Shown: in pieces, positions 1-35,769 of the stretch
How positions within the stretch are numbered: position 1 is the first letter of the stretch
Layout of the letters: every line of letters starts with the position of its first letter
Origin: a virus
DNA: 36,237 bases
Strand: one strand, 5' to 3'
Virus record (IMG/VR): IMGVR_UViG_3300047470_000200
Coordinates: 1 to 36,237 of that record
The notes under the pieces: model-generated
The model's input: only the letters and a program-made list of their open reading frames with translations
The model's database searches: none
What the model was told of the DNA's origin: nothing
Position numbers and translations under genes: made by a program

Positions 1-741
1 CGCCCGGACCTGACTTTCGATGGTCTTCAGGTGCTCGTCGAGTTTGGCACGCTGCCCGTCGGTCATGTCGACGTCGATGACCTCCGGGCGTAGCTGCCCG
101 ACAATCCCGCCCGCTACCTCCGCGAGGCGGAGGTGATCCGCGGTCGCCTTCACCCTCGACCCGGGTGACCGCTGCTCGACGACCGTCTCCCGCACTTCGC
201 CCTTGGGGGTGCGCTTCTTCGTGGCCGTCTTCTTCGCCGACGCACTGACCTCCTGGACGGGTCCGGCGTCGACGGCCGCCGCTACCTTCGTTGCGTTGAT
301 GATGACTTGGTTGGTCGCCCGAGTGTCCTGCTGTCGTTCGAGAGCCGACTCAGGGATGAGTCCGAGCCGCTTCAGTTCCCGCGGTGTCAGGTGCCGGCGC
401 AGAGCGTTGTTGACGTGGTAGCGGACGGCCGTTTTGATGCGGTCTTCGTCGACGCCTGCACGTCGATACATCTCGTTCACGGCCTTGCGGTACTCGCCGT
501 CACGGCCTAGCCAGTCGTCGTGCTGACGTCGCAATGCCAGGACCACAGTTGCGATGTTCTTCAGGAGGATCGTCGGGTGATGCTCAATCCTCCCCCACTC
601 CCGGGCGTACGCCGCACCGCGGACGACTAGCATCTCCTCCGACTCGTCCTTGATGTCGTCGAGCTCCAGCTGACGCGGGTCACTGACGTTCACGCGCACA
701 GCTTCGCCCTTTGATTGCCGGGCAACTTCGCTGGAGCTCAT
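1..741 (-). CDS. Unknown phage protein, Lys-rich C-terminal half (3' end cut by window)
   Basis: The minus frame is open from an ATG at 741 to the left edge, giving 247 residues with no stop, so the C-terminus lies outside the window. I do not recognise a family. The N-terminal part is mixed-charge. The middle is rich in Arg and Leu (around residues 85-130, including RRHLTPRELKRLGL) and could be helical. Residues around 165-180 are a basic AKKTATKKRTPKG stretch typical of a flexible nucleic-acid-binding linker, followed by another charged segment. The gene has its own upstream region with an operator-like site between a -35 and a -10 (see 767-839), so it looks like the first gene of a regulated leftward transcript. 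A DNA-binding or regulatory role is only a guess. The reading frame itself is well supported. Confidence 0.7.
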   Translation of the reverse strand, partial: MSSSEVARQSKGEAVRVNVSDPRQLELDDIKDESEEMLVVRGAAYAREWGRIEHHPTILLKNIATVVLALRRQHDDWLGRDGEYRKAVNEMYRRAGVDEDRIKTAVRYHVNNALRRHLTPRELKRLGLIPESALERQQDTRATNQVIINATKVAAAVDAGPVQEVSASAKKTATKKRTPKGEVRETVVEQRSPGSRVKATADHLRLAEVAGGIVGQLRPEVIDVDMTDGQRAKLDEHLKTIESQVRA

Positions 742-766: not shown

Positions 767-839
767 TGCGCCGCTGGTTGACGGCAGAGTAGCGCAAAAC
801 GTTTGACGTTGACAGAACCCTACAGTAACCAGCGGCGCA
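767..839. promoter_or_regulatory. Operator/promoter region framed by a 13-bp inverted repeat
   Basis: A perfect 13-bp inverted repeat (TGCGCCGCTGGTT at 767-779, its complement at 827-839) frames a 47-bp AT-richer centre. Read on the minus strand, the centre holds TACTCT (786-791) as a -10 and CTGTCA about 18 bp upstream as a -35. The 13-mer CAAACGTTTTGCG (793-805 on the minus strand) sits between them. It would control the minus-strand gene starting at 741. The same 13-mer occurs at 18387 and 35748. This is a sequence-based prediction; no binding protein is identified. Confidence 0.55.
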
Positions 840-2637: not shown

Positions 2638-4980
2638 CTAGCCGACTGCGGCCCAAAACGTGAGGTTCGTGAGGGCGTTGCTTGCAGGCGTGATCGTGGC
2701 CGGCAACGCTGCCTGTCCCGTACCGTTCGTCGCGAAGCGGGCCGTGGCACCCGAAGTGTTCGCGCCGTGCAGGCCCCCGCTCAGCGTCCCTCCGCGGTAG
2801 ATCTGCGGCATGGTCGTTGCGGTCGCCAGGAACGCAACCCAGTACAGGCCCGGGGACACGTCGACGCTGATCGTCTCCGTGAAGGGGCCAGTGGCAGTGA
2901 CTCGCGCATCGACGCCGACGGAGGCAAGCCTCGCCCCCGCTGCGCTGTAAAGCCCGACGAAGTTCTGACCTGCCGTCGGCGTGACGCCCGCCGTGTTGAT
3001 GCCCCACATGATCTTCGTCAAGGTCGTGTACTTCGGGACGTAGACCGCGGACAGGTACAGCGTTCCCGACACTCCGGCACTTCCGTTGCCGATGGTGGCG
3101 GGGTCCTGCGTCCAGGCGACGAGGCCATGGTCAGACGGCTTCGGTACGCCGAGAGCGCGACCAGCCACCGAAAGACTGTTCGTGATCCCGTCGAGCGTCG
3201 CTCCACCGTCGACGGCGCTCGTCGGGGACGCAGGATCGCCGACGAGTTCGCGGATGTTGAGGCCCCGCTGAAGACGGGTGTTGCCGCCTCCGTCCCTCCA
3301 TCCGGCCGTCATGCCGTTAAGGACGCCGCTATGTACCGCGACATAGGTACTGCCGGTGACCGACACGCCGTACTGAGGAGACCGCGTCCCGGAGCTGTCG
3401 TCGTCGATACCCGTCAGGACGCTGACGTCACTCGCCTCGACGATGCCGGGGCACGTATCCACCATGAGGCCGGCGTAGTTGCCTCCGCCTGTCCCTCCGT
3501 TGCGCCCGTCTCGGTTCAACCGCGCGTTCGTGATCACCACAGTTGCGCCGGCGGATCCTCCCGTGACGAGGATTCCGCCCTGTGCGTTGCGGTCCGTCGA
3601 GCAGCCGATGAGCGACAGCTGTGCGTTCCCGGGGACGAGGTGGAAGCCCTTCAGGTTCCACTCGCTTCGGCACCCGATAAGCGTGGTGTTCCCGCACCCG
3701 CTCAGGTAGAAGCCGTAACCCGCGGAGCCGATGGCCTCGACGTCGATGAGCGTCGAGTCCGTCGTGTTGTTGAGGCTGAACGCGTTTCCTCCACAGTCAG
3801 ATGAGATGACGCGGCGGAGGCGACTGGAGTACGGGGCCTGCGGGAGTCCGGCGGGAGCGGAGAAGTTGTAGGTGAAGAACACCGCATGTCCGCCGAATTT
3901 CTTGATCGACAGGTTCTCGAAGACGAGACCGCGGATGGTGCCCTGCGCCTGAACGCCGTCGACCGCGTTACCGGCCGGAAGTGCGGTGCCGTCTAGCGTC
4001 AGGTCGTAGAGCCGCTGCTCACACGACTTCGCCGCGTATCCACCGAGCGGGGCGTCCAGGATCAGGATCACTGCGGCCCCGGTGAACGTCGACAGTGCCT
4101 TGATGCGGGCACTGACCTGCGTCCACCCGCTCAGGTTGTCGAAGTGATCGCCGTGGGACCCCCTCAGCGTCACCCCGGGCGGGATGACGAGCGGAGCCGA
4201 CGTGCGGTAGGTGCCGGCGGGAAGGTAGACGACGCCACCTGTCCCCGCTGCGTTGAGGGCGTTCTGAATCGCGGCTGTGTCGTCCGACGTTCCGTTGCCC
4301 GTTGCGCTGTACGGCGCCTTCCTCACATTGATCCAGTCGGTCACGCCGACTGCTGTGAGCCCCGCTGCTGTGCCCGCCGGGTCCGCCCCGACATCCGCGG
4401 CCGTCAGGGAAACGACGCCAGTCTCTCCGTTGACTGAAGCGACACCGTTCAGTGCGACGCCGGACGTCGGCCAGGAGCCGGCGGACTTCGGGCCGTAGAG
4501 GGAGACGGCGCCGGGAGTGGTGTCTATGTAGTAGTCGCCATTGACGCCCAGGACGTCGGAGGGGGCGCCGGATCCGTTGTAGATCTGCGTCCCGTCCTTG
4601 CCCTTCGGGCCGGTGATGACGACATAGTCACCCTCGCTCGGGTCAGTCGGAGCGATGTCCGCCAGGTCCACGGTGGGCGTCGCCGACGGAAGCGCGATGG
4701 GGAACGTCCGCCCATGCACCTGATGGAGACGCTCGACGACCGTGTAAGTCCAGTCCGACGGATCTCCGCCTGCTGCGTCCGTCGCGATCAGAGAGACGGA
4801 GAAGGCGCCCGTCGAGTCCAGCGCCACCGTGGCAGCGCCGAAGCTGATGACGTCGGCGTCCGGGAACGTCAGGTGCGCCGGGGGCTCGAAAGTGAGCGTG
4901 CCCGTCAGCGGCGTACCATCGGGCCGGATGTAGCGGCCCGTGAGGTTCACGGACGCGATGCTGATGGGTACCTCTGGCAT
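2638..4980 (-). CDS. Tail fibre / receptor-binding protein with pectate-lyase fold
   Basis: This is a 780-residue protein. Residues 1-110 (SIASVNLTGRYIRPDGTPLTGTLTF...) form a beta-rich attachment domain of the kind seen in actinophage minor tail proteins. ITGPKGKDG near residue 122 and SLYGPKSAGSW near 160 are short collagen-like or fibre-linker segments. From about residue 225 the NGTSDDTAAIQNALNAA...GGVVYLPAGTYRT signature of pectate lyase superfamily 3 begins, followed by about 350 residues of short repeating beta turns (parallel beta-helix). The last 150 residues form a beta-rich cap ending in NALTNLTFWAAVG. Such proteins bind or degrade cell-surface polysaccharide. It is followed downstream by the dNMP kinase promoter and preceded by the holin-like gene with no gap. 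Whether it has enzymatic activity cannot be read from the sequence. Confidence 0.85.
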   Translation of the reverse strand: MPEVPISIASVNLTGRYIRPDGTPLTGTLTFEPPAHLTFPDADVISFGAATVALDSTGAFSVSLIATDAAGGDPSDWTYTVVERLHQVHGRTFPIALPSATPTVDLADIAPTDPSEGDYVVITGPKGKDGTQIYNGSGAPSDVLGVNGDYYIDTTPGAVSLYGPKSAGSWPTSGVALNGVASVNGETGVVSLTAADVGADPAGTAAGLTAVGVTDWINVRKAPYSATGNGTSDDTAAIQNALNAAGTGGVVYLPAGTYRTSAPLVIPPGVTLRGSHGDHFDNLSGWTQVSARIKALSTFTGAAVILILDAPLGGYAAKSCEQRLYDLTLDGTALPAGNAVDGVQAQGTIRGLVFENLSIKKFGGHAVFFTYNFSAPAGLPQAPYSSRLRRVISSDCGGNAFSLNNTTDSTLIDVEAIGSAGYGFYLSGCGNTTLIGCRSEWNLKGFHLVPGNAQLSLIGCSTDRNAQGGILVTGGSAGATVVITNARLNRDGRNGGTGGGNYAGLMVDTCPGIVEASDVSVLTGIDDDSSGTRSPQYGVSVTGSTYVAVHSGVLNGMTAGWRDGGGNTRLQRGLNIRELVGDPASPTSAVDGGATLDGITNSLSVAGRALGVPKPSDHGLVAWTQDPATIGNGSAGVSGTLYLSAVYVPKYTTLTKIMWGINTAGVTPTAGQNFVGLYSAAGARLASVGVDARVTATGPFTETISVDVSPGLYWVAFLATATTMPQIYRGGTLSGGLHGANTSGATARFATNGTGQAALPATITPASNALTNLTFWAAVG

Positions 4981-6258: not shown

Positions 6259-6891
6259 TCAGTCGCCGGCGGGGCTGAACATGACTCCGTCGAGGCCGAA
6301 CCATGGCGGGTTGGCTGTCGTCCCCTGGCCCCCGCCGGCCTCGACCATCGCCGAGAGCGTTCCGTCAGTTCCTACTTCGAGGCGTCCCGTCCAGCGGGTC
6401 ACACCGCTAATCGTTTGGCGGTTGGTCGGGACGATGAAGCATCGGAGACTGCCAGGCGCCATGGACGACGGAATGGACGCAAACGGAATGGCGTCTCCGC
6501 CGTCATCGAAGTTGCCGTTGTTGGAGCGCTTGATACGCCCGCGGAGTTCGATCCCTCCGCCCGCCTTCTTTCGCCAACCCGGAGATCCGGCGATAGCGTT
6601 GTAGCCCGTTTTGAATGTCAACGGCTGCCACGGACCGTCAGACAACAGGAGCCAGGTTCCGTCAGCCTGACGTCCTTCCCATCGGTCTTCGGCGATGAGA
6701 TACGTCAGCATCCCGGGAACGGGCTTAGTGCTGCCGGTCAACGCCGCAGCACGGGCGTTGGCGTCGGCGAAACGCATGACCAGCCTTGGAACGAAGCCGT
6801 TTACAAGCGTTTGCAGCTGAACTTCGATGTCCGGCACATCTCCCAGTACCGGATACTGAACTGCCTGACTGTACGCGTCACTGCGGGGCAT
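6259..6891 (-). CDS. Minor tail protein (probable)
   Basis: This is a 210-residue protein. Residues 1-85 (LGDVPDIEVQLQTLVNGFVPRLVMRFADANARAAAL...GMLTYLIAEDRWEGRQADGTWLLL) resemble the N-terminal part of many actinophage minor tail proteins, in which a short trimerising segment is followed by a test for zero-length or parameter-like repeats. Residues 90-210 are beta-rich and look like a small carbohydrate-binding or fibre-head domain (ELRGRIKRSNNG...TGRLEVGTDGTLSAMV). I recognise the layout, not a named family. It lies between the baseplate-like 84-residue protein and the endolysin, as expected for a tail-tip component. The ATG at 6891 gives a compact N-terminus. Confidence 0.65.
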   Translation of the reverse strand: MPRSDAYSQAVQYPVLGDVPDIEVQLQTLVNGFVPRLVMRFADANARAAALTGSTKPVPGMLTYLIAEDRWEGRQADGTWLLLSDGPWQPLTFKTGYNAIAGSPGWRKKAGGGIELRGRIKRSNNGNFDDGGDAIPFASIPSSMAPGSLRCFIVPTNRQTISGVTRWTGRLEVGTDGTLSAMVEAGGGQGTTANPPWFGLDGVMFSPAGD

Positions 6892-8294: not shown

Positions 8295-10481
8295 TCACGC
8301 TCCTGTGTAGACGTCGAGCCAGGTACTTGCGCCGGCCAGGGCGTCGGCCCATGTGTCGTCCGAGTCGGCAACGGTCTGCCACGTGCGGTCAGCGCTGCCT
8401 GTAACGCCGCCGATTGGACGGCCTACTTGGGTCAGCGGCAGAACCCACATGCGGTCGTGGAACTCCGCATAGTCGACGACCGGTGCGGCGCTGACGTCGC
8501 CGACGGACACGTACATGTCCTCCTCGCCCCAGCCTGGAGGCCACTGCAGGAGCAGCGGTCCGCCAGAGTCGAGCACCCACCACAGCGAGTCGCGGTCGGC
8601 GTCCGTCTCCGTGACGACGGTGAGGTCCCCCGCTTTCCCTCCGCGGACGTCAGAGATGACGATCGGGAGTGAGGCGCCCCTGACTTGGTTCATCCCCTGG
8701 CGTGCAGGGCGAGACCACGTCGGCATGGGCGTTGCGACGGTGAGCTTGACGTTCCTCTGCGGGAGTCCTGGATCCTTCAGCCACACGTCGGTGATTTCGG
8801 CGTCCAGGGTGACCGGGTCGGAGACGAAGCTGAGCGAGCCAAACCCGCTAGGGTTCTTAACCGTCACTCGCCACTGCACAGGCACGCCTAGCGGGGCCTC
8901 GTAGTCAGTGGCCACGGCCACATCTCCCGTGATCGGCTGCGACGACAGGTCGCCGCTCCAGCCGCGCACAGGTTGGGCTGCCTGGCCCGAGATGATTCGT
9001 TCGAGCGTCCACAGGTACGTCGGTCCGCCGCTCGTCAGGCCACGCACGGTGATGGCTGCTCCGCCACCTCCCGCGGCTACAGCCTTCGCTGTCAGCCCGC
9101 CTAGGCGCCACTCGACTCGGTCCAGATACCAGACTTCGCCGGTAGGAACGTCCGGGACGACGAAGCTCAGGCGGACAGCGACGGCTCCGTCGGGAGTCAG
9201 GTCACCCATGCTGCCCGCGAGCCATCCCGTCGTCCGCCCCGTCCAGGACTGCCAACGGGTTCGAACGGGAGTCCCCGACGAGTCAAGCCACTCGATGCGC
9301 GTCTGATAAGTGCGCGCCACCGTCTGAAAGCTGCACGGAAGGAACTGATAGCCGAGACCAGCCGTCACACCGATCGGGTTCGTGATCGTCGCCACGATGT
9401 CCCCGCCCGCCGCGACGAGCTTCATCGAGTAGGAGCCGGCTAGGACTTGCTCCGTCGTCTGGGACGCTGTGGCTCCTGAGACTGACCAGCCGGAGACGTC
9501 CTGCTCCATGTCGCTCGTGTTGTAGGGCAAGAGATTGCCCGTCGTCATGAGCGCACTTGACGGTGCCAGGACTGCTCTGTCGTAGACCCACTGCTGACCC
9601 GATGCCGTGGACTGTGGGGCAAGGCCCATCTTTGCCGTCACGGCGCCCGCCGGAGCGGTGCCGACGACAACACATCTCGTCCACTGTCCCGATGTCGGGG
9701 TCCAGTCGGCCGAAGAGACGCTGATCTGTGCCCCAGTGCCGTCGAGCCACTGTATTTGGATCTTCTGCGTCAGCCCCGCGGCTCCTGGAGTCACGTAGGC
9801 GTAGGCCACGTACTCAGTACCCGTCGAGACGCTCACCGACTGCGCAGTGAGCGCGAGACACGAGCCGGAGCCCGTCGACGTCAGACGGAGCGACTGGTAC
9901 CACGTGAACGCACTCGTTGAGATCCCCAGCGAGCACAGGGAGGACGCTGTCCAGCCGCTCGCGTCGGCCTCCGCCGACTCCGTGTTGAAGGAGAGGAGGT
10001 TTCCCGTCGAGGGCGTCGTCAGCCCCAGGAACATGCGATCCGCGAACCACGCTTGCGCGGCGGCCGTTGCCGTCGGCCTGATGACTACGTCGGCCGTCGC
10101 AGCGTTCGAGGGAGCGGTCCCTACAACGCCCACCTGATGCCAGGTCGCGGACGGAGCCGACGTCAGCGGGCCCTGCGCCGTACTGATCAGCGTCCCGCCG
10201 GACGTGTACCACCGGATCTCTATGCGGGACTGAGCACCCACAGCCGGCGGGAAGACCGACGCGCACGCCCAGTGCTCCGCGTTCGGAGTGACAGCCACTC
10301 GCGACGCTAGGCCGACCTGGACATCACCCGCGGCGACGGACGTGAACCTGAGACACTTCGATCCGAGCGTCCCTCCGGTCGACTGCGTGGGATTCGTGGA
10401 GTTGATGAGCGCCTGCCACGCGGAGGCGTCAGTCTCGACGCTCTCCGCGTTGGCGGACAGGAGATTGCCCGTGATGGCCAC
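8295..10481 (-). CDS. Minor tail protein with three CBM-like repeats
   Basis: This is a 728-residue protein from a GTG. Three tandem units of about 155 residues begin TGNLLSANAESVETDASAW, TGNLLSFNTESAEADASGW and TGNLLPYNTSDMEQDVSGW. Each has a beta-rich body and a W-DR-type ending (AWFADRMFL, QWVYDRAVL, VWYLDRVEW), the pattern of carbohydrate-binding jelly-roll (CBM_4_9-like) domains. Residues 460-728 contain a fibronectin-like segment (QWRVTVKNPSGFG) and a tail-attachment part ending in TWADALAGASTWLDVYTGA. It likely binds cell-surface glycans at the tail tip. The GTG overlaps the stop of the small upstream ORF as TAGTG, indicating coupling. The CBM assignment rests on visible repeats, not on a search. 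Confidence 0.8.
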   Translation of the reverse strand: MAITGNLLSANAESVETDASAWQALINSTNPTQSTGGTLGSKCLRFTSVAAGDVQVGLASRVAVTPNAEHWACASVFPPAVGAQSRIEIRWYTSGGTLISTAQGPLTSAPSATWHQVGVVGTAPSNAATADVVIRPTATAAAQAWFADRMFLGLTTPSTGNLLSFNTESAEADASGWTASSLCSLGISTSAFTWYQSLRLTSTGSGSCLALTAQSVSVSTGTEYVAYAYVTPGAAGLTQKIQIQWLDGTGAQISVSSADWTPTSGQWTRCVVVGTAPAGAVTAKMGLAPQSTASGQQWVYDRAVLAPSSALMTTGNLLPYNTSDMEQDVSGWSVSGATASQTTEQVLAGSYSMKLVAAGGDIVATITNPIGVTAGLGYQFLPCSFQTVARTYQTRIEWLDSSGTPVRTRWQSWTGRTTGWLAGSMGDLTPDGAVAVRLSFVVPDVPTGEVWYLDRVEWRLGGLTAKAVAAGGGGAAITVRGLTSGGPTYLWTLERIISGQAAQPVRGWSGDLSSQPITGDVAVATDYEAPLGVPVQWRVTVKNPSGFGSLSFVSDPVTLDAEITDVWLKDPGLPQRNVKLTVATPMPTWSRPARQGMNQVRGASLPIVISDVRGGKAGDLTVVTETDADRDSLWWVLDSGGPLLLQWPPGWGEEDMYVSVGDVSAAPVVDYAEFHDRMWVLPLTQVGRPIGGVTGSADRTWQTVADSDDTWADALAGASTWLDVYTGA

Positions 10482-15348: not shown

Positions 15349-16090
15349 TACGCCTCCTTCGGCTGGTTTCTCAGCCGCGGGTCAAGCGCCGCGCGCTGGT
15401 CGTCTGTCAGCCCCCTCCGCGCTGTGGCGGACTTCGGGGGAATGCCGGGTCGCGGCGTGGGTTCGAACTCACCGGGCTTGCCGCCGTTCGCGGCGACCAT
15501 GACCATGCGGAGGAGTCGCACCTCGTCCTTCACGGAGGCGAGGAGGATCTCTGTTCCACTCCACGGCGCCAGGTCGGGGCGGCTCTCCCCCGTCGCACGA
15601 TCCAGCTCCTCCACGGGAACGGAGTTGCGGAGTGCTGTCTTCGTCGCGCTCTCCGGCGGGAGGTGCTCAATCAGCACGCGGAGCCTGCGGAGGGACATCC
15701 GGCCCCGGTAGACGTCGAGGAAGTCGGTACCGGGGTAGTAGCGGCAGAAGTCGGCCTCTAGCGCTTCCGCGTGGTCTTCGCACGTGCGGAGCGTGCGCCA
15801 GACTTTCCCGGGGCCTCCCCGGAGTCCTCCATGAGCTGCTTCGTGAACTCACCGATCTCGTCGAACGTGGCGTCAGCCTCGACGAACTTCACGGCGTCGT
15901 CCTCGTGAAGGGCGCCCGCGGCCCACCCTTCGAAGTCCGCGGTGCGGAGTGCACGGAGGTACGAGGGCCTCCACTGGCCCATGGGCTTCACCCGGAGGGC
16001 GACGCCGGCGAGCTCGAAAGTGTTGTACTCCTCGGAGGTCGCCTCGTTCTCCTGCGCCTCAGCGGGGGTCGTGGTGGTGGTCTCAGACAT
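15348..16090 (-). CDS. Tail assembly chaperone G-T, made by -1 frameshift
   Basis: The G frame (start 16090) is read to codon 96. At the heptamer G GGA AAG (15803-15809, minus) the ribosome can slip one base back and continue in the T frame, VWRTLRTCEDHAEALEADFCRYYPGTDFLDVYRGRMSLRRLRV..., to the stop at 15348. This gives a fusion of about 247 residues. The T frame is open without a stop across the whole junction, and its sequence (EALEADFCRYYPGTDFLDVYRGRMSLRRL) resembles T domains of other actinophage G-T proteins. The in-frame ATG at 15698 gives only a 116-residue internal fragment and is probably not used. The fusion helps to assemble tail tube protein on the tape measure. Confidence 0.85.
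15758..16090 (-). CDS. Tail assembly chaperone G
   Basis: This 110-residue protein starts MSETTTTTPAEAQENE, an unstructured acidic lead, followed by NTFELAGVALRVKPMGQWRPSYLRALRTADFEGWAAGALHEDDAVKFVEADATFDEIGEFTKQLMEDSG, a compact helical domain typical of gpG-like chaperones in actinophages (VKP-GQWRPS and a conserved F-E-WA helix). Its last codons (SARAKTTRKR) are encoded beyond the slip site and are replaced by the T frame in the shifted product. It lies between the major tail protein and the tape measure, the expected position. Confidence 0.85.
   Translation of the reverse strand: MSETTTTTPAEAQENEATSEEYNTFELAGVALRVKPMGQWRPSYLRALRTADFEGWAAGALHEDDAVKFVEADATFDEIGEFTKQLMEDSGEAPGKSGARSARAKTTRKR
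15803..15809 (-). other. -1 ribosomal frameshift heptamer GGGAAAG
   Basis: The G frame reads CCG GGA AAG TCT here, giving X XXY YYZ with X=G, Y=A, Z=G, a canonical slippery heptamer. The overlapping -1 frame is the T coding frame and is open from here to 15348. Conserved frameshifting between G and T is established for tailed phages; I see the motif and frames, not the shifted protein. Confidence 0.85.
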
Positions 16091-16150
16091 GCGCGGGTCT
16101 GCCTCTCAGGCTGTGGTTCTGGGGTTCTGCGCGGGTCGTTGTGGAGCTGG

Positions 16151-16186
16151 AGCGGGGCCCGGACCCGCGCAGATACGGGCCCCGCT
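16151..16186. terminator. Strong hairpin after major tail protein gene
   Basis: AGCGGGGCCCG (16151-16161) and its complement (16176-16186) form an 11-bp stem with a 14-base loop. There is no T run on either side, so it may act as an attenuator or mRNA-stabilising structure rather than a classic terminator. Its place between the abundant major tail protein and the tail chaperone suggests it lowers expression of the downstream genes. Confidence 0.5.
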
Positions 16187-16197
16187 AGTCATGCGCG

Positions 16198-17930: not shown

Positions 17931-18307
17931 CGCACCACCCACGTTGACGTGCAGGGGGCCGCGTCCTCTGGTGAGATGTCGAGGGACGAGGCGCCCGACG
18001 ACATCCCCACGGCACGTCGAAGCCGCTTGCGCTCGTCCTCCGAGAGGATGACGCCAGTCTCCGAGTCGGCGTAGCTGACCAGCATTCCGCCGGCCTGCTC
18101 CGACCGGACGCCTGAGGGGTTCGTCAGGATCCTCGACGCCACCATGAGCGCAACCGACTTCACGCCTCGCTGAGCGGGGTCGGTCAGCCGCTCGCCCACC
18201 TCACCGTAGAACGCGTCTTCGGTGAGTTCGTGGGCGAGAGAGCACTCATCGTCGGTGAGCGGTCGCTTCAGGAGGATCCGAAGCTCACTCGCTTCGAACA
18301 GTGCCAC
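17927..18307 (-). CDS. Head-tail connector / adaptor protein
   Basis: This is a 126-residue, mostly helical protein. MALFEASELRILLKRPLTDDECSLAHELTEDAFYGEVGERLTDPAQRGVKSVALMVASRILTNPSGVRSEQAGG is followed by VSYADSETGVILSEDERKRLRRA. The ELRILLKRPLTDDE start, the helical body and the SVALMVASRILTNP segment are typical of adaptor proteins (gp15/gp6-like) that bind below the portal. The next gene is coupled by ATGA. The upstream 82-residue gene overlaps it by 23 bp. Confidence 0.8.
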   Translation of the reverse strand: MALFEASELRILLKRPLTDDECSLAHELTEDAFYGEVGERLTDPAQRGVKSVALMVASRILTNPSGVRSEQAGGMLVSYADSETGVILSEDERKRLRRAVGMSSGASSLDISPEDAAPCTSTWVVR

Positions 18308-18533
18308 CGGTCGCCGCCTTCCGCCGTGGCGCAGCCCGCTTCGTCGCAGGCTTAGGCGCAGGTACTGGCGTGGGCTCAGGCTCCGACAAACGTTTTGCGG
18401 TAGGTGCTACCGCCCACGCCTTCGGGTTCGTGATGCGCTCCTGAGCCCACTCGGGGACCTCGTCCGCGGGGCCGAACACGTGGGTCACGCCCTCGCCGTC
18501 CGTCACGTGGACGTAGCCGTTAAGGGTTGCCAT
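18285..18533 (-). CDS. Unknown 82-residue protein between capsid and adaptor
   Basis: The protein starts MATLNGYVHVTDGEGVTHVFGPADEVPEWAQERITNPKAWAVAP and ends with a Pro/Lys/Arg-rich tail (EPTPVPAPKPATKRAAPRRK). The first 45 residues look like a small beta domain (GYVHVTDGEG-THVFGP) with a PEWA helix, a layout often seen directly after the actinophage capsid gene. I chose the ATG at 18533 because the longer start at 18632 would overlap the capsid gene. The reading frame overlaps the adaptor start by 23 bp. The 13-mer CAAACGTTTTGCG occurs inside it (18387-18399). Function is unknown; a role in head completion is inferred from position. Confidence 0.7.
   Translation of the reverse strand: MATLNGYVHVTDGEGVTHVFGPADEVPEWAQERITNPKAWAVAPTAKRLSEPEPTPVPAPKPATKRAAPRRKAATGGTVRSE
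18387..18399 (+). promoter_or_regulatory. Copy B of the CAAACGTTTTGCG site, inside a coding region
   Basis: It is identical over 13 bases to copies at 793-805 (opposite strand) and 35748-35760. Here it lies within the 82-residue gene, on a strand that codes A-K-R-L-S, and no promoter is evident nearby. It could be a remote operator or DNA-looping site, or a chance match enforced by coding; three exact copies of an AT-rich 13-mer in a GC-rich window argue against chance. Confidence 0.4.
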
Positions 18534-21503: not shown

Positions 21504-23004
21504 CCGCGCTCCGTCCGATCACGGTCCGCTGGTCACGAGCCGATCGGGCGTCGGCGATGCTCGTCGGTTGCGGAGCCGCGGGGTCAACAGCCGTCTGCGC
21601 GTTCATCGCGTCGGCAGCACGGTCGATCTCCATGCGGGAAATCTCCGCGGGCGTGTAGCCCATGTCCTCCATGCGCTGACGCCACGGGACGCCGGCTGTC
21701 GCCTTCTTCACAGCAGCGTCGGCCAGTTCGGCGATGCTCCGGGACTCCGGATCACGCCAGACCGTCTCAGCGGTGTACGCGTTGGCCTTTGTCTCGTCGC
21801 CCAGGACCCGGAACGCAATCCGCATCGTGGCTTCCCACGATTCGCCGAAGTTGCGCTGCCGGTCTCGGACCTTCGAGACGAGGCCGGTCTCCGCAGCCTT
21901 CAGGGCGTCGCCGCTGACGTTGACCACGGCACCGATCAGGTAGTGCGGAGGAGTCCGGCTGATCGCCGCGAGATCCTGCACCGCAGCCTCGACGGCCCGG
22001 ACGTACGGAACGAGGTCAGTTGCGGAGAACTCTCCGAACTTGACGTCGGGATCCTCCGTTGTCCAGAGGCGCCGAATGTCGAGCTGGAAGGGCTGGATCT
22101 TCTTCCCGGTGACGGGGTCCTCGTCGACCTCCAGGCCCGCGGCCCAACGCTGACGGAAGGCGCCGTACTTCATGGCGGCAATCGTCATGATGAGCGAGAG
22201 CGTGATGCGGTTCTGGACCGTGAGAACGTCCTCGTGCTCAGCGAATCCCCCAAGCCTGCGGTTTCGCCGGTTGATGAAGGGGACGAGGGGGACGATCCCC
22301 AGATCGTTGGGCCGGTGACTCTCCGACTGGTTCGGCAGCGCGAAGGCGTCCCAGCTCGTGAGGCGAGCCGCACGGCCGGAGAAGACGGGCGCGTTGGTCT
22401 TCGTGACGAACTCGTGGATCGTCTCCGGAGTCCACAGCGTCGCCCGGGTGTCGCCCGTCCAGTCGTCCCGCCACAGCTTCAGGCCCGCAGCGAGCTTTCG
22501 CCGGCTCCCCTGCATGTGCTCGACGGCGACCTGCCGCGGAGTCTCGTGCGTGATGACCGGTCGACCGTCGTCGCCACGCTCGACGAGGGTGAACGCCCTT
22601 CGCTGTGACAGGGCGCCGTAGTGGACGAGGTCCGCGTCCGCGTCGAGGCTGTTCTCCTGCCAGACGCGGTTCGCTTCCTTGTCCGACGTCTTCGCACCGT
22701 CGCTGTCGTCGTCCGGCTCACCGAAGCGGAAGCCGTCGACGTGCATGCGCTCAACGGGAGAGTCGATGACGAGGCTCGTCCAGTTGGTACGGGCGTCCTT
22801 CATCCACTCTGAGACCTCCGCGGGGTCCAGGCCAGGCACACGAGGGAGCGGCGCACGGTTCTCCGCGTACCGCCTCAGCGTGTCGAGGCCAGGCTCCACT
22901 TCGCCGTCAGCGTCCTTGGAGTCGTCACGCTCGTCGAGCAGCTTCTTACCGAGCCGCTGAAGCCACCACCCGGGAGACTCCACCTTCGAAGCATCGATAG
23001 GCAC
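21484..23004 (-). CDS. Portal protein
   Basis: The protein has 506 residues. It begins MPIDASKVESPGWWLQRLGKKLLDERDDSKDADGEVEPGLDTLRRYAENRAPLPRVPG and continues with WTSLVIDSPVERMHVDGFRF and NSLDADADLVHYGALSQRRAFTLVE, a pattern found in SPP1 gp6-like portal proteins. The central part contains FINRRNRRLGGFAEHEDVLTVQNRITLSLIMTIAAMKYGAFRQRW, the stem helices. The C-terminal part (PPHYLIGAVVNVSGDALKAAETGLVSKVRDRQRNFGESWEATMRI) is typical for the crown side. The portal forms the ring through which DNA is packaged. It lies between TerL and the MuF-like gene. Confidence 0.9.
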   Translation of the reverse strand: MPIDASKVESPGWWLQRLGKKLLDERDDSKDADGEVEPGLDTLRRYAENRAPLPRVPGLDPAEVSEWMKDARTNWTSLVIDSPVERMHVDGFRFGEPDDDSDGAKTSDKEANRVWQENSLDADADLVHYGALSQRRAFTLVERGDDGRPVITHETPRQVAVEHMQGSRRKLAAGLKLWRDDWTGDTRATLWTPETIHEFVTKTNAPVFSGRAARLTSWDAFALPNQSESHRPNDLGIVPLVPFINRRNRRLGGFAEHEDVLTVQNRITLSLIMTIAAMKYGAFRQRWAAGLEVDEDPVTGKKIQPFQLDIRRLWTTEDPDVKFGEFSATDLVPYVRAVEAAVQDLAAISRTPPHYLIGAVVNVSGDALKAAETGLVSKVRDRQRNFGESWEATMRIAFRVLGDETKANAYTAETVWRDPESRSIAELADAAVKKATAGVPWRQRMEDMGYTPAEISRMEIDRAADAMNAQTAVDPAAPQPTSIADARSARDQRTVIGRSADDANAA

Positions 23005-32809: not shown

Positions 32810-33664
32810 ATGGCCGAACCCACGGTTCGAACGCGTCGACTCGGCTCAGAGTTGCTGCGCCTGCGGGAGGCCGCGGGCCTGAAGCTGGACGACGTCACGT
32901 CGCGTACAGGCATGCCTGCGTCGAAGGTCAGCCGTATCGAAAAGGCTCGCCTCGGGGTTCGACCCAACGACCTGACGAGCCTCCTGGACCTCTACGGCGT
33001 CGACGACGCTGCCAAGCGGGACGTCCTCCAGGAGCTTGCGCGCGACGGCCGCAAGCGCGGATGGTGGCAGACGTACCGCGACGTCATCTCGCCGGCGTAC
33101 GCGGACCTGATCAGCCTCGAAGCCGACGCCGTGACCATGCAGACCTTTCAGACCACACTCATTCCGGGCCTCCTCCAGACGGCCGCGTACGCACGCGCGA
33201 CGATTGAGGCCATCAGGATGGACTCTCAGCCCGAAGAGGTCGACGCCCTTGTCGACGTCCGCATGGCGCGACAGTCCGTCCTCTCCCGCCGGGATCCCCT
33301 GGAGCTGTGGGCCATCATCCACGAGTCGGCGCTCCACCCCAGAGTGAGCAGCCACCCGCTGTTGATGAAGGAGCAACTTCAGATGTTGCTCGACAAGCAA
33401 AGACTTCCGCACGTCTCGATACAGGTACTGCCGCTCAGCGCTCCTCCGCACGTCGGGATGAGCGGGAGCTTCGCGGTCGTCGGGTTCCCGGAGGCGGCAT
33501 CGCTGGACGTTGTCCTCGTCGAGAGTCTGACGAGCGCGCTGTACGTCGAGGACGCTGCGGAAGTGAGTCGGTACGGGAGTGCCTTCGAGCGGCTACGTGC
33601 GGCAGCTCTCCCGTTCGACGAATCGGCCGACCTCATCGCACGACTGAAGGACATCATCCAATGA
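32810..33664 (+). CDS. WhiJ-like XRE HTH regulator with DUF5753
   Basis: This is a 284-residue protein; AAGGGGG lies eight bases upstream of the ATG. Residues 10-65 are an XRE helix-turn-helix (LGSELLRLREAAGLKLDDVTSRTGMPASKVSRIEKARLGVRPNDLTSLL). Residues about 85-280 form DUF5753 (FQTTLIPGLLQTAAYARATIEAI...LWAIIHESALHPRVSSHPLLMKEQLQMLLDKQRLPHVSIQVLPLSAPPHVGMSGSFAVVGFPE). This pairing is typical of Streptomyces regulators such as WhiJ, encoded with a DUF397 partner. The next gene overlaps as ATGA. Its phage location suggests a lysogeny, immunity or host-interference role; a DUF397 toxin/antitoxin-like function has been proposed for this pairing, which I recall but cannot verify here. Confidence 0.9.
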   Translation: MAEPTVRTRRLGSELLRLREAAGLKLDDVTSRTGMPASKVSRIEKARLGVRPNDLTSLLDLYGVDDAAKRDVLQELARDGRKRGWWQTYRDVISPAYADLISLEADAVTMQTFQTTLIPGLLQTAAYARATIEAIRMDSQPEEVDALVDVRMARQSVLSRRDPLELWAIIHESALHPRVSSHPLLMKEQLQMLLDKQRLPHVSIQVLPLSAPPHVGMSGSFAVVGFPEAASLDVVLVESLTSALYVEDAAEVSRYGSAFERLRAAALPFDESADLIARLKDIIQ

Positions 33665-35295: not shown

Positions 35296-35670
35296 TCAGG
35301 CAGGGAGCGGGGCCCACTTGAGACCCATCGCCTGAGTGCTAGTGATCCACGCGTCGAGCTTGACGCCTACCGTCTCCCACTCCTCTACCTCCAGGTCGTA
35401 GCCGTAGCCCGCGCGGCCGTAGTCCCGCACGTAGTCCGCCAGGGCCGCTATGCAGTTGTCACGGTTGCGCGGGGAGGTGACGACGCACTCCTGACCGGGC
35501 TTGCCGTAGTCGGTGACAACCGACCAGCCAAAGTGCGACACCTCAGCAATCCACACCGTGTAGCGGCCGTAGTGAGCCCAGTTGTACGCAACACGGGTAG
35601 CGCGGGCGCGGGGGATGGTCATCAGGTCGTCGACGGTGAGGGGGAGCATCGTCTCAGTCGTGGTGGTCAT
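35296..35670 (-). CDS. Unknown 124-residue protein
   Basis: The protein is MTTTTETMLPLTVDDLMTIPRARATRVAYNWAHYGRYTVWIAEVSHFGWSVVTDYGKPGQECVVTSPRNRDNCIAALADYVRDYGRAGYGYDLEVEEWETVGVKLDAWITSTQAMGLKWAPLPA. It is an alpha/beta mixture with a central WSVVTDYG-strand and a CIAALADYVRDYG helix. GGAGGAG precedes the ATG. Upstream lies operator copy C, and the gene is bracketed by two identical terminators, so it is a single-gene unit under that operator. No family is recognised. Confidence 0.7.
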   Translation of the reverse strand: MTTTTETMLPLTVDDLMTIPRARATRVAYNWAHYGRYTVWIAEVSHFGWSVVTDYGKPGQECVVTSPRNRDNCIAALADYVRDYGRAGYGYDLEVEEWETVGVKLDAWITSTQAMGLKWAPLPA

Positions 35671-35747
35671 GTCGCTCTCCTCCGTTAGTGCCTCTCGCTG
35701 TGGCTCCATCATGGCATGGATGAGTCGACCACCACAACGCCTAGCGA

Positions 35748-35760
35748 CAAACGTTTTGCG
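35748..35760 (+). promoter_or_regulatory. Copy C of the CAAACGTTTTGCG site, upstream of a small gene
   Basis: The 13-mer is identical to copies at 793-805 and 18387-18399. It lies in the gap upstream of the 35296-35670 gene, right after the terminator at 35770. On the minus strand it is framed by CAACGC and GCGTTG. A promoter is likely here, though the -10 and -35 are not clear. Confidence 0.5.
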
Positions 35761-35769
35761 TTGCACCTG

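Follow-up and report, generated by a model that had tools for sequence, protein, structure and literature searches.

Palindromic operator sites across a Samy-like Streptomyces phage genome and their probable recognition by the phage's own repressor

The window, i.e. the whole stretch of 36,237 nucleotides analysed here (IMG/VR record IMGVR_UViG_3300047470_000200), is a 36-kb piece of a Samy-like, phiC31-related Streptomyces phage. Samy (OR263580, 61 kb), a temperate relative of phiC31 (PMC11302927), was the sole similar record found by megablast of the phage collection, with 77–79% identity over parts. Mapping of Samy proteins onto the window indicates that it begins in the repressor gene, contains the late genes, passes the Samy genome end and reaches the right end of the early region, and that Samy 26.4–52.8 kb, which comprises most of the early region, is absent. 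The repressor gene (741->1) encodes a product that shares 52% identity over its full length with SAMYPH_32 of Samy, annotated as "putative immunity repressor" and highly expressed in all conditions (PMC11302927); homologues have a length of ca. 254–258 residues. The corresponding slot in the relatives and in Samy contains the genes for deoxynucleoside monophosphate kinase (DNK), SprT, repressor and exonuclease in this order, and the exonuclease gene of the studied phage would fall beyond the window end. The closest relatives of the studied phage are the near-complete IMG/VR contigs G001 (55.7 kb) and G002 (55.8 kb), whose repressors are 87% identical to that of the window. Five more contigs with ca. 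52% identical repressors were added to the comparison of positions. Position counts refer to eight phages. Between 29924 and 31798, a minus-strand ORF of 624 residues overlaps a region of weak similarity (23%) to the Samy integrase, and the integration module appears to be exchanged relative to Samy.

Table 1. Features of the window discussed in the text
Feature	Position	Strand	Remarks
Repressor gene	1..741	-	reading frame interrupted by the window end after 247 codons
13-bp inverted repeat	767..839	-	arms 767-779 and 827-839, exact; encloses repressor promoter and operator A
Repressor promoter	786..815	-	-35 CTGTCA (815-810); 18-nt spacer with operator core; -10 TACTCT (791-786)
Operator A	789..812	-	imperfect palindrome TCAACGTCAAACGTTTTGCGCTAC; PWM 32.1; between -35 and -10 of the repressor promoter
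Weak candidate site	6401..6424	-	ACACCGCTAATCGTTTGGCGGTTG, centre 6412, within a tail gene; PWM 15.1
Head-tail connector gene	18294-18533	-	late gene; houses operator B
Operator B	18380..18403	+	PWM 27.6; within the head-tail connector gene
124-aa gene downstream of C	35296..35670	-	phrog_26751, unknown function; putatively controlled by C, judging from its position
Conserved module adjoining C	35690..35740	-	GTTGTGGTGGTCGACTCAT..GCCATGAT; putative early promoter
Operator C	35741..35764	+	PWM 33.2, top score of the window

The 13-mer CAAACGTTTTGCG is present in exactly three copies, termed A, B and C, at 793-805 (minus), 18387-18399 (plus) and 35748-35760 (plus). The original prediction considered three exact copies as improbable by chance, and this is borne out by 100 dinucleotide-preserving shuffles of the window, none of which contained even one copy, and by a reversed-pattern control with 0 matches. 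It had also described a palindromic core inside the 13-mer. The palindromy is real, but the 13-mer is not the unit: B and C have the 16 bp of CGACAAACGTTTTGCG in common, 15 of which are found in A, and the flanks belong to the site, the half-sites composing an imperfect palindrome of ca. 24 bp with the consensus GTAGCGCAAAACGTTTTGCGCTAC. In G001 and G002 the site consensus is the perfect palindrome GTAGCGCAAAACGTTTTGCGCTAC, and a near-perfect site in the relatives, CTAGCGCAAAACGTTTTGCGCTAC, is perfectly palindromic over its inner 22 bp. In our reading, the 13-mer represents the conserved central part of a putative palindromic operator of 24 bp. A position weight matrix (PWM) trained on G001 and G002 sites chosen by 13-mer similarity, in which the core positions are not independent and the independent information resides in the outer bases, ranks C, A and B first in the window (scores in Table 1); the highest value reached in any of 100 Markov shuffles was 13.4. 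The weak palindrome centred at 6412 lies slightly above this maximum; a counterpart in G001 or G002 was not found.

Operator A is located 58–59 nt before the repressor start (59 nt in the window), and its core and promoter context are identical in G001 and G002. Direct reading of the minus strand confirmed its placement between CTGTCA and TACTCT; the -10 element is identical in all three phages, and the -35 element is either CTGTCA or CTGCCA. A repressor bound here, between its own -35 and -10 elements, would limit its own synthesis by steric autoregulation. The inverted repeat around A, likewise noted originally, is exact, and G001 keeps the arms by compensatory changes at two pairs. In both clades the repressor promoter lies within a strong predicted RNA hairpin whose sequence is unrelated between the two (767-839 in the window; 9915-9975 in locus L158). 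The z-scores within the window clade are -4.7 (the window itself), -3.5 and -4.0, and that of one Samy-clade phage is -3.0. The arms, previously thought to suggest a second binding or looping element, are no less compatible with a hairpin in read-through RNA, and such a hairpin may influence transcripts that read through into the repressor gene. One might go further and regard the inverted repeat as the main element, late read-through RNA forming an extended hairpin across the repressor leader, in line with the compensatory changes and the z-scores. We hold this for very improbable, because the hairpin leaves B, C and the sites of the relatives, which are mostly devoid of such arms, unexplained; moreover, a hairpin over the repressor leader can coexist with an operator. 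The idea that operators are generally embedded in longer inverted repeats was considered and rejected (mean of 6.5 in the window clade versus 5.3 in the null; Samy and phiC31 not different); such embedding is seen at the repressor promoter and in front of the tail chaperone.

Operator C lies 82 nt upstream of the minus-strand gene starting at 35670. The original prediction placed A and C upstream of small minus-strand genes, which is correct with respect to position and, with 124 residues, fits the gene at 35670, but the gene at 741 with at least 247 codons is not small. The conserved module adjoining C recurs beside four sites in G001, three in G002 and, in diverged form, five in Samy; in the form GTTGTGG.GGTCGAC....YCATAGT it accompanies operators in both the Samy and the window clade. 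We infer that it represents an early promoter and a candidate for an early-promoter class; the module beside C was not recognised in a scan for the sigma-70 consensus. A repressor attached to C would sit against the -35 side of this putative promoter and block lytic transcription. The mid-operon sites of G001 at 47988 and 48565 are situated close before start codons and, like B, have no evident promoter. At B and at the mid-operon sites of the relatives, the likeliest role of the repressor would be to halt elongation in the manner of a roadblock, a mechanism proposed for the L5 stoperators (PMC9283540).

The near matches in related phages, whose counting had been suggested originally as a check, are numerous. 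At up to one mismatch, the 13-mer has 12 matches in G001 and 10 in G002 (0 for the reversed control), a perfect palindrome being counted once per strand; when matches are merged by place and two mismatches are permitted, the numbers are 13 and 10 sites, respectively. Only three operators are found in the window because most would fall within the absent early region. In Samy, the ten best PWM matches all represent its own diverged motif CGTGAGTCGTTTTACGCG, which was also recovered independently by k-mer counting. A survey of positions, based on cores of the type (AAA/AGT)CG(TTT/ACT) flanked by CG, revealed a site within the connector gene, 72–84 nt before the Ad1 start, in seven of the eight phages including the window (operator B), G004 being the exception, and a site 28–32 nt before the tail chaperone in six of eight, the window and G004 being without it. 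At 16090-16197, where relatives carry the operator preceding the tail assembly chaperone, the window has a degenerate remnant, GCGCAGAACCCC, and the site has apparently been lost. Further homologous sites are located 110–176 nt before RDF and 146–151 nt before sigma, and the primase gene is also preceded by sites at homologous positions in relatives including Samy. Apart from the repressor's own site, the 13-mer is almost always oriented opposite to transcription. The Samy clade carries its copy in front of the adjacent SprT gene and none at the repressor promoter. No description of operators, conserved inverted repeats (CIRs) or other inverted repeats of this kind was found in the Samy paper (PMC11302927).

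These data also bear on the trivial explanation of chance or coding repeats. Copy B does lie within a coding gene, and a collection-wide 15-mer scan returned single matches in more than 100 viral contigs, which are mostly due to chance. Nevertheless, the shuffles, the PWM scores, the 10–12 matches per close relative and the conserved positions leave this explanation virtually no room, and we consider it ruled out.

The identity of the binding protein can be approached via the core sequence, which is AAACGTTT in the window, G001 and G002 and AGTCGTTT in Samy, G003, G004 and G005; G007 contains both types. The repressors are 85–87% identical within the window clade and 51–55% identical to all others. 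Among the genes compared, the operator type tracks only the repressor gene and its linked SprT-like neighbour, which presumably co-segregates through linkage. Since the core type splits the phages as the repressor does, the repressor is taken as the binder, and this constitutes our main argument. Two candidate regulators had been named originally, of which the gene 741->1 is upheld and the HTH gene near 32.8 kb is not, as the latter does not co-segregate with the operator type. Binding by this HTH protein (32825-33658, a homologue of Samy gp91) or by a gp86-like DNA-binding protein is improbable in our judgement. Both proteins are annotated as DNA-binding in Samy and gp86 is encoded downstream of operator C, but their similarity does not follow the operator type: gp91 identities amount to 78% between the window and G003/G004, 73% between the window and G001 and 77% between G002 and Samy, and the gp86 identity between G001 and Samy is 79%. 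Still less credible, indeed very hard to reconcile with the distribution of cores, is a recruitment of a host LacI/PurR-type regulator that would wire the phage to host metabolism. LacI/PurR operators have a AAACGTTT core, and the phage core with its central CG dyad resembles such boxes; a fixed host protein, however, would not explain the clade-wide swap to AGTCGTTT at the same positions and in step with the phage repressor.

The repressor itself has no recognisable DNA-binding domain and no HTH match in Pfam and PHROGs, and its structural model (pLDDT 66) produced no PDB fold match; matches to apolipoproteins with an E value of about 0.01 were taken as helix-composition noise. A scan of GTDB genomes for the repressor found none. 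On the basis of sequence comparison we consider it highly probable that the phage's own repressor binds the operators, which recur in a small group of Streptomyces phages, and so maintains dormancy in an autoregulated operator/roadblock network, similar to that of phiC31 with its CIRs and endowed with a new specificity. The repressor, probably as a dimer or higher oligomer, would bind copies across the genome. The earlier interpretation as the operator set of a phage repressor is thereby supported by 10–12 matches per relative at homologous places and by a core that changes as a block with the repressor, and with it the claim that the repeats tie the two arms of a single genome together. To this, the present analysis adds the assignment of the repressor, the actual palindrome, the extent of the network and the conservation of its positions.

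The repressor family extends beyond Streptomyces phages. Arthrobacter phage Emotion contains six exact copies of GTTTCACGTGAAAC (at 2784, 4941, 16337, 18016, 18378 and 23450) and Arthrobacter phage VroomVroom five (at 3558, 4079, 16483, 18226 and 24436). This sequence is identical to the consensus of the bacterial centromere parS. In both phages, one copy is positioned ca. 114–116 nt before RDF, the same place as an operator of the window clade. BaileyBlu, with a repressor of the same family, has a palindrome like GTAAGGCGTCTTAC at 22822, 31667, 31739, 33013, 33414 and 33497, mostly intergenic, and one such copy ca. 119 nt before gp30, at the RDF position of the relatives; these palindromes are likely an operator set of its own. 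G007 with its two core types is a possible intermediate in operator re-specification. A bolder scenario combines these observations: the network would have been re-specified as a block with its positions kept, including the site in a structural gene, G007 would be a living intermediate, and the operator of the Arthrobacter phages would now be parS (GTTTCACGTGAAAC), its sites being shared by the repressor and host ParB. We consider this combination rather unlikely, albeit worth formulating. With AAACGTTT, AGTCGTTT or mixed cores occupying equivalent positions, these phages offer a handle on a joint change of specificity in a repressor and a dozen operators, and operator types could predict superinfection immunity groups. 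For a group of temperate Streptomyces phages, the analysis further names the repressor and predicts its operators; it also proposes a function, open to testing, for a family that is labelled "hypothetical protein" in numerous phages of Arthrobacter and Microbacterium.

Compared to established systems, the network shares with the regulation of mycobacteriophages L5/TipsytheTRex the location of repressor sites at promoters and short intergenic places genome-wide (PMC9283540). The L5 sites are asymmetric 13-mers bound by an HTH monomer, whereas the operator described here is a 24-bp palindrome and the repressor has no HTH family match. Alignment and tblastn assign Ald of Arthrobacter phage phiAAU2 and the "hypothetical proteins" gp24–gp27 of Arthrobacter and Microbacterium phages to the same family; in phiAAU2, the region homologous to the repressor overlaps ald ("Aborting Lytic Development"), with weaker similarity than that of Samy. 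These homologues occupy the same DNK–exonuclease slot in the full genomes read, but they are shorter, belong to phages of other hosts and are accompanied in some cases by palindromes of their own. Samy agrees with the studied phage in genome plan, in its 52% identical repressor and in operators at homologous places, and differs in the core AGTCGTTT and in a repressor promoter without a copy.

The closest functional parallel is phiC31. Its repressor binds CIRs, and the phiC31 genome itself contains at least 16 comparable palindromes CCTACTCACGTGAGTAGG. Both systems comprise many near-identical palindromes with a central CG in early and late regions, one of them upstream of the repressor gene, which in both cases resides in the slot between DNK and exonuclease. 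Of the features of a CIR-type system, a multi-site network is seen, with three strong sites in the window, 13 in G001 and 10 in G002, as is a site at the repressor's own promoter in three phages. In contrast, the operator is GTAGCGCAAAACGTTTTGCGCTAC here and CCTACTCACGTGAGTAGG in phiC31, where neither the 13-mer at up to one mismatch nor a CIR by means of the window PWM was detected, and phiC31 c has 683 residues versus ca. 255 of the repressor described here. A homology between the 247-residue repressor and phiC31 c is weakly suggested: BLASTP revealed no similarity and the PHROGs of phiC31 c are not matched, but a profile comparison with hhalign gave a weak relationship (probability 31%, E 5e-4), and the authors of the Samy study report a relation of the repressor to phiC31 c. 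The best reading of these likenesses and differences is that the network would work like the CIR system of phiC31 with a new sequence specificity.
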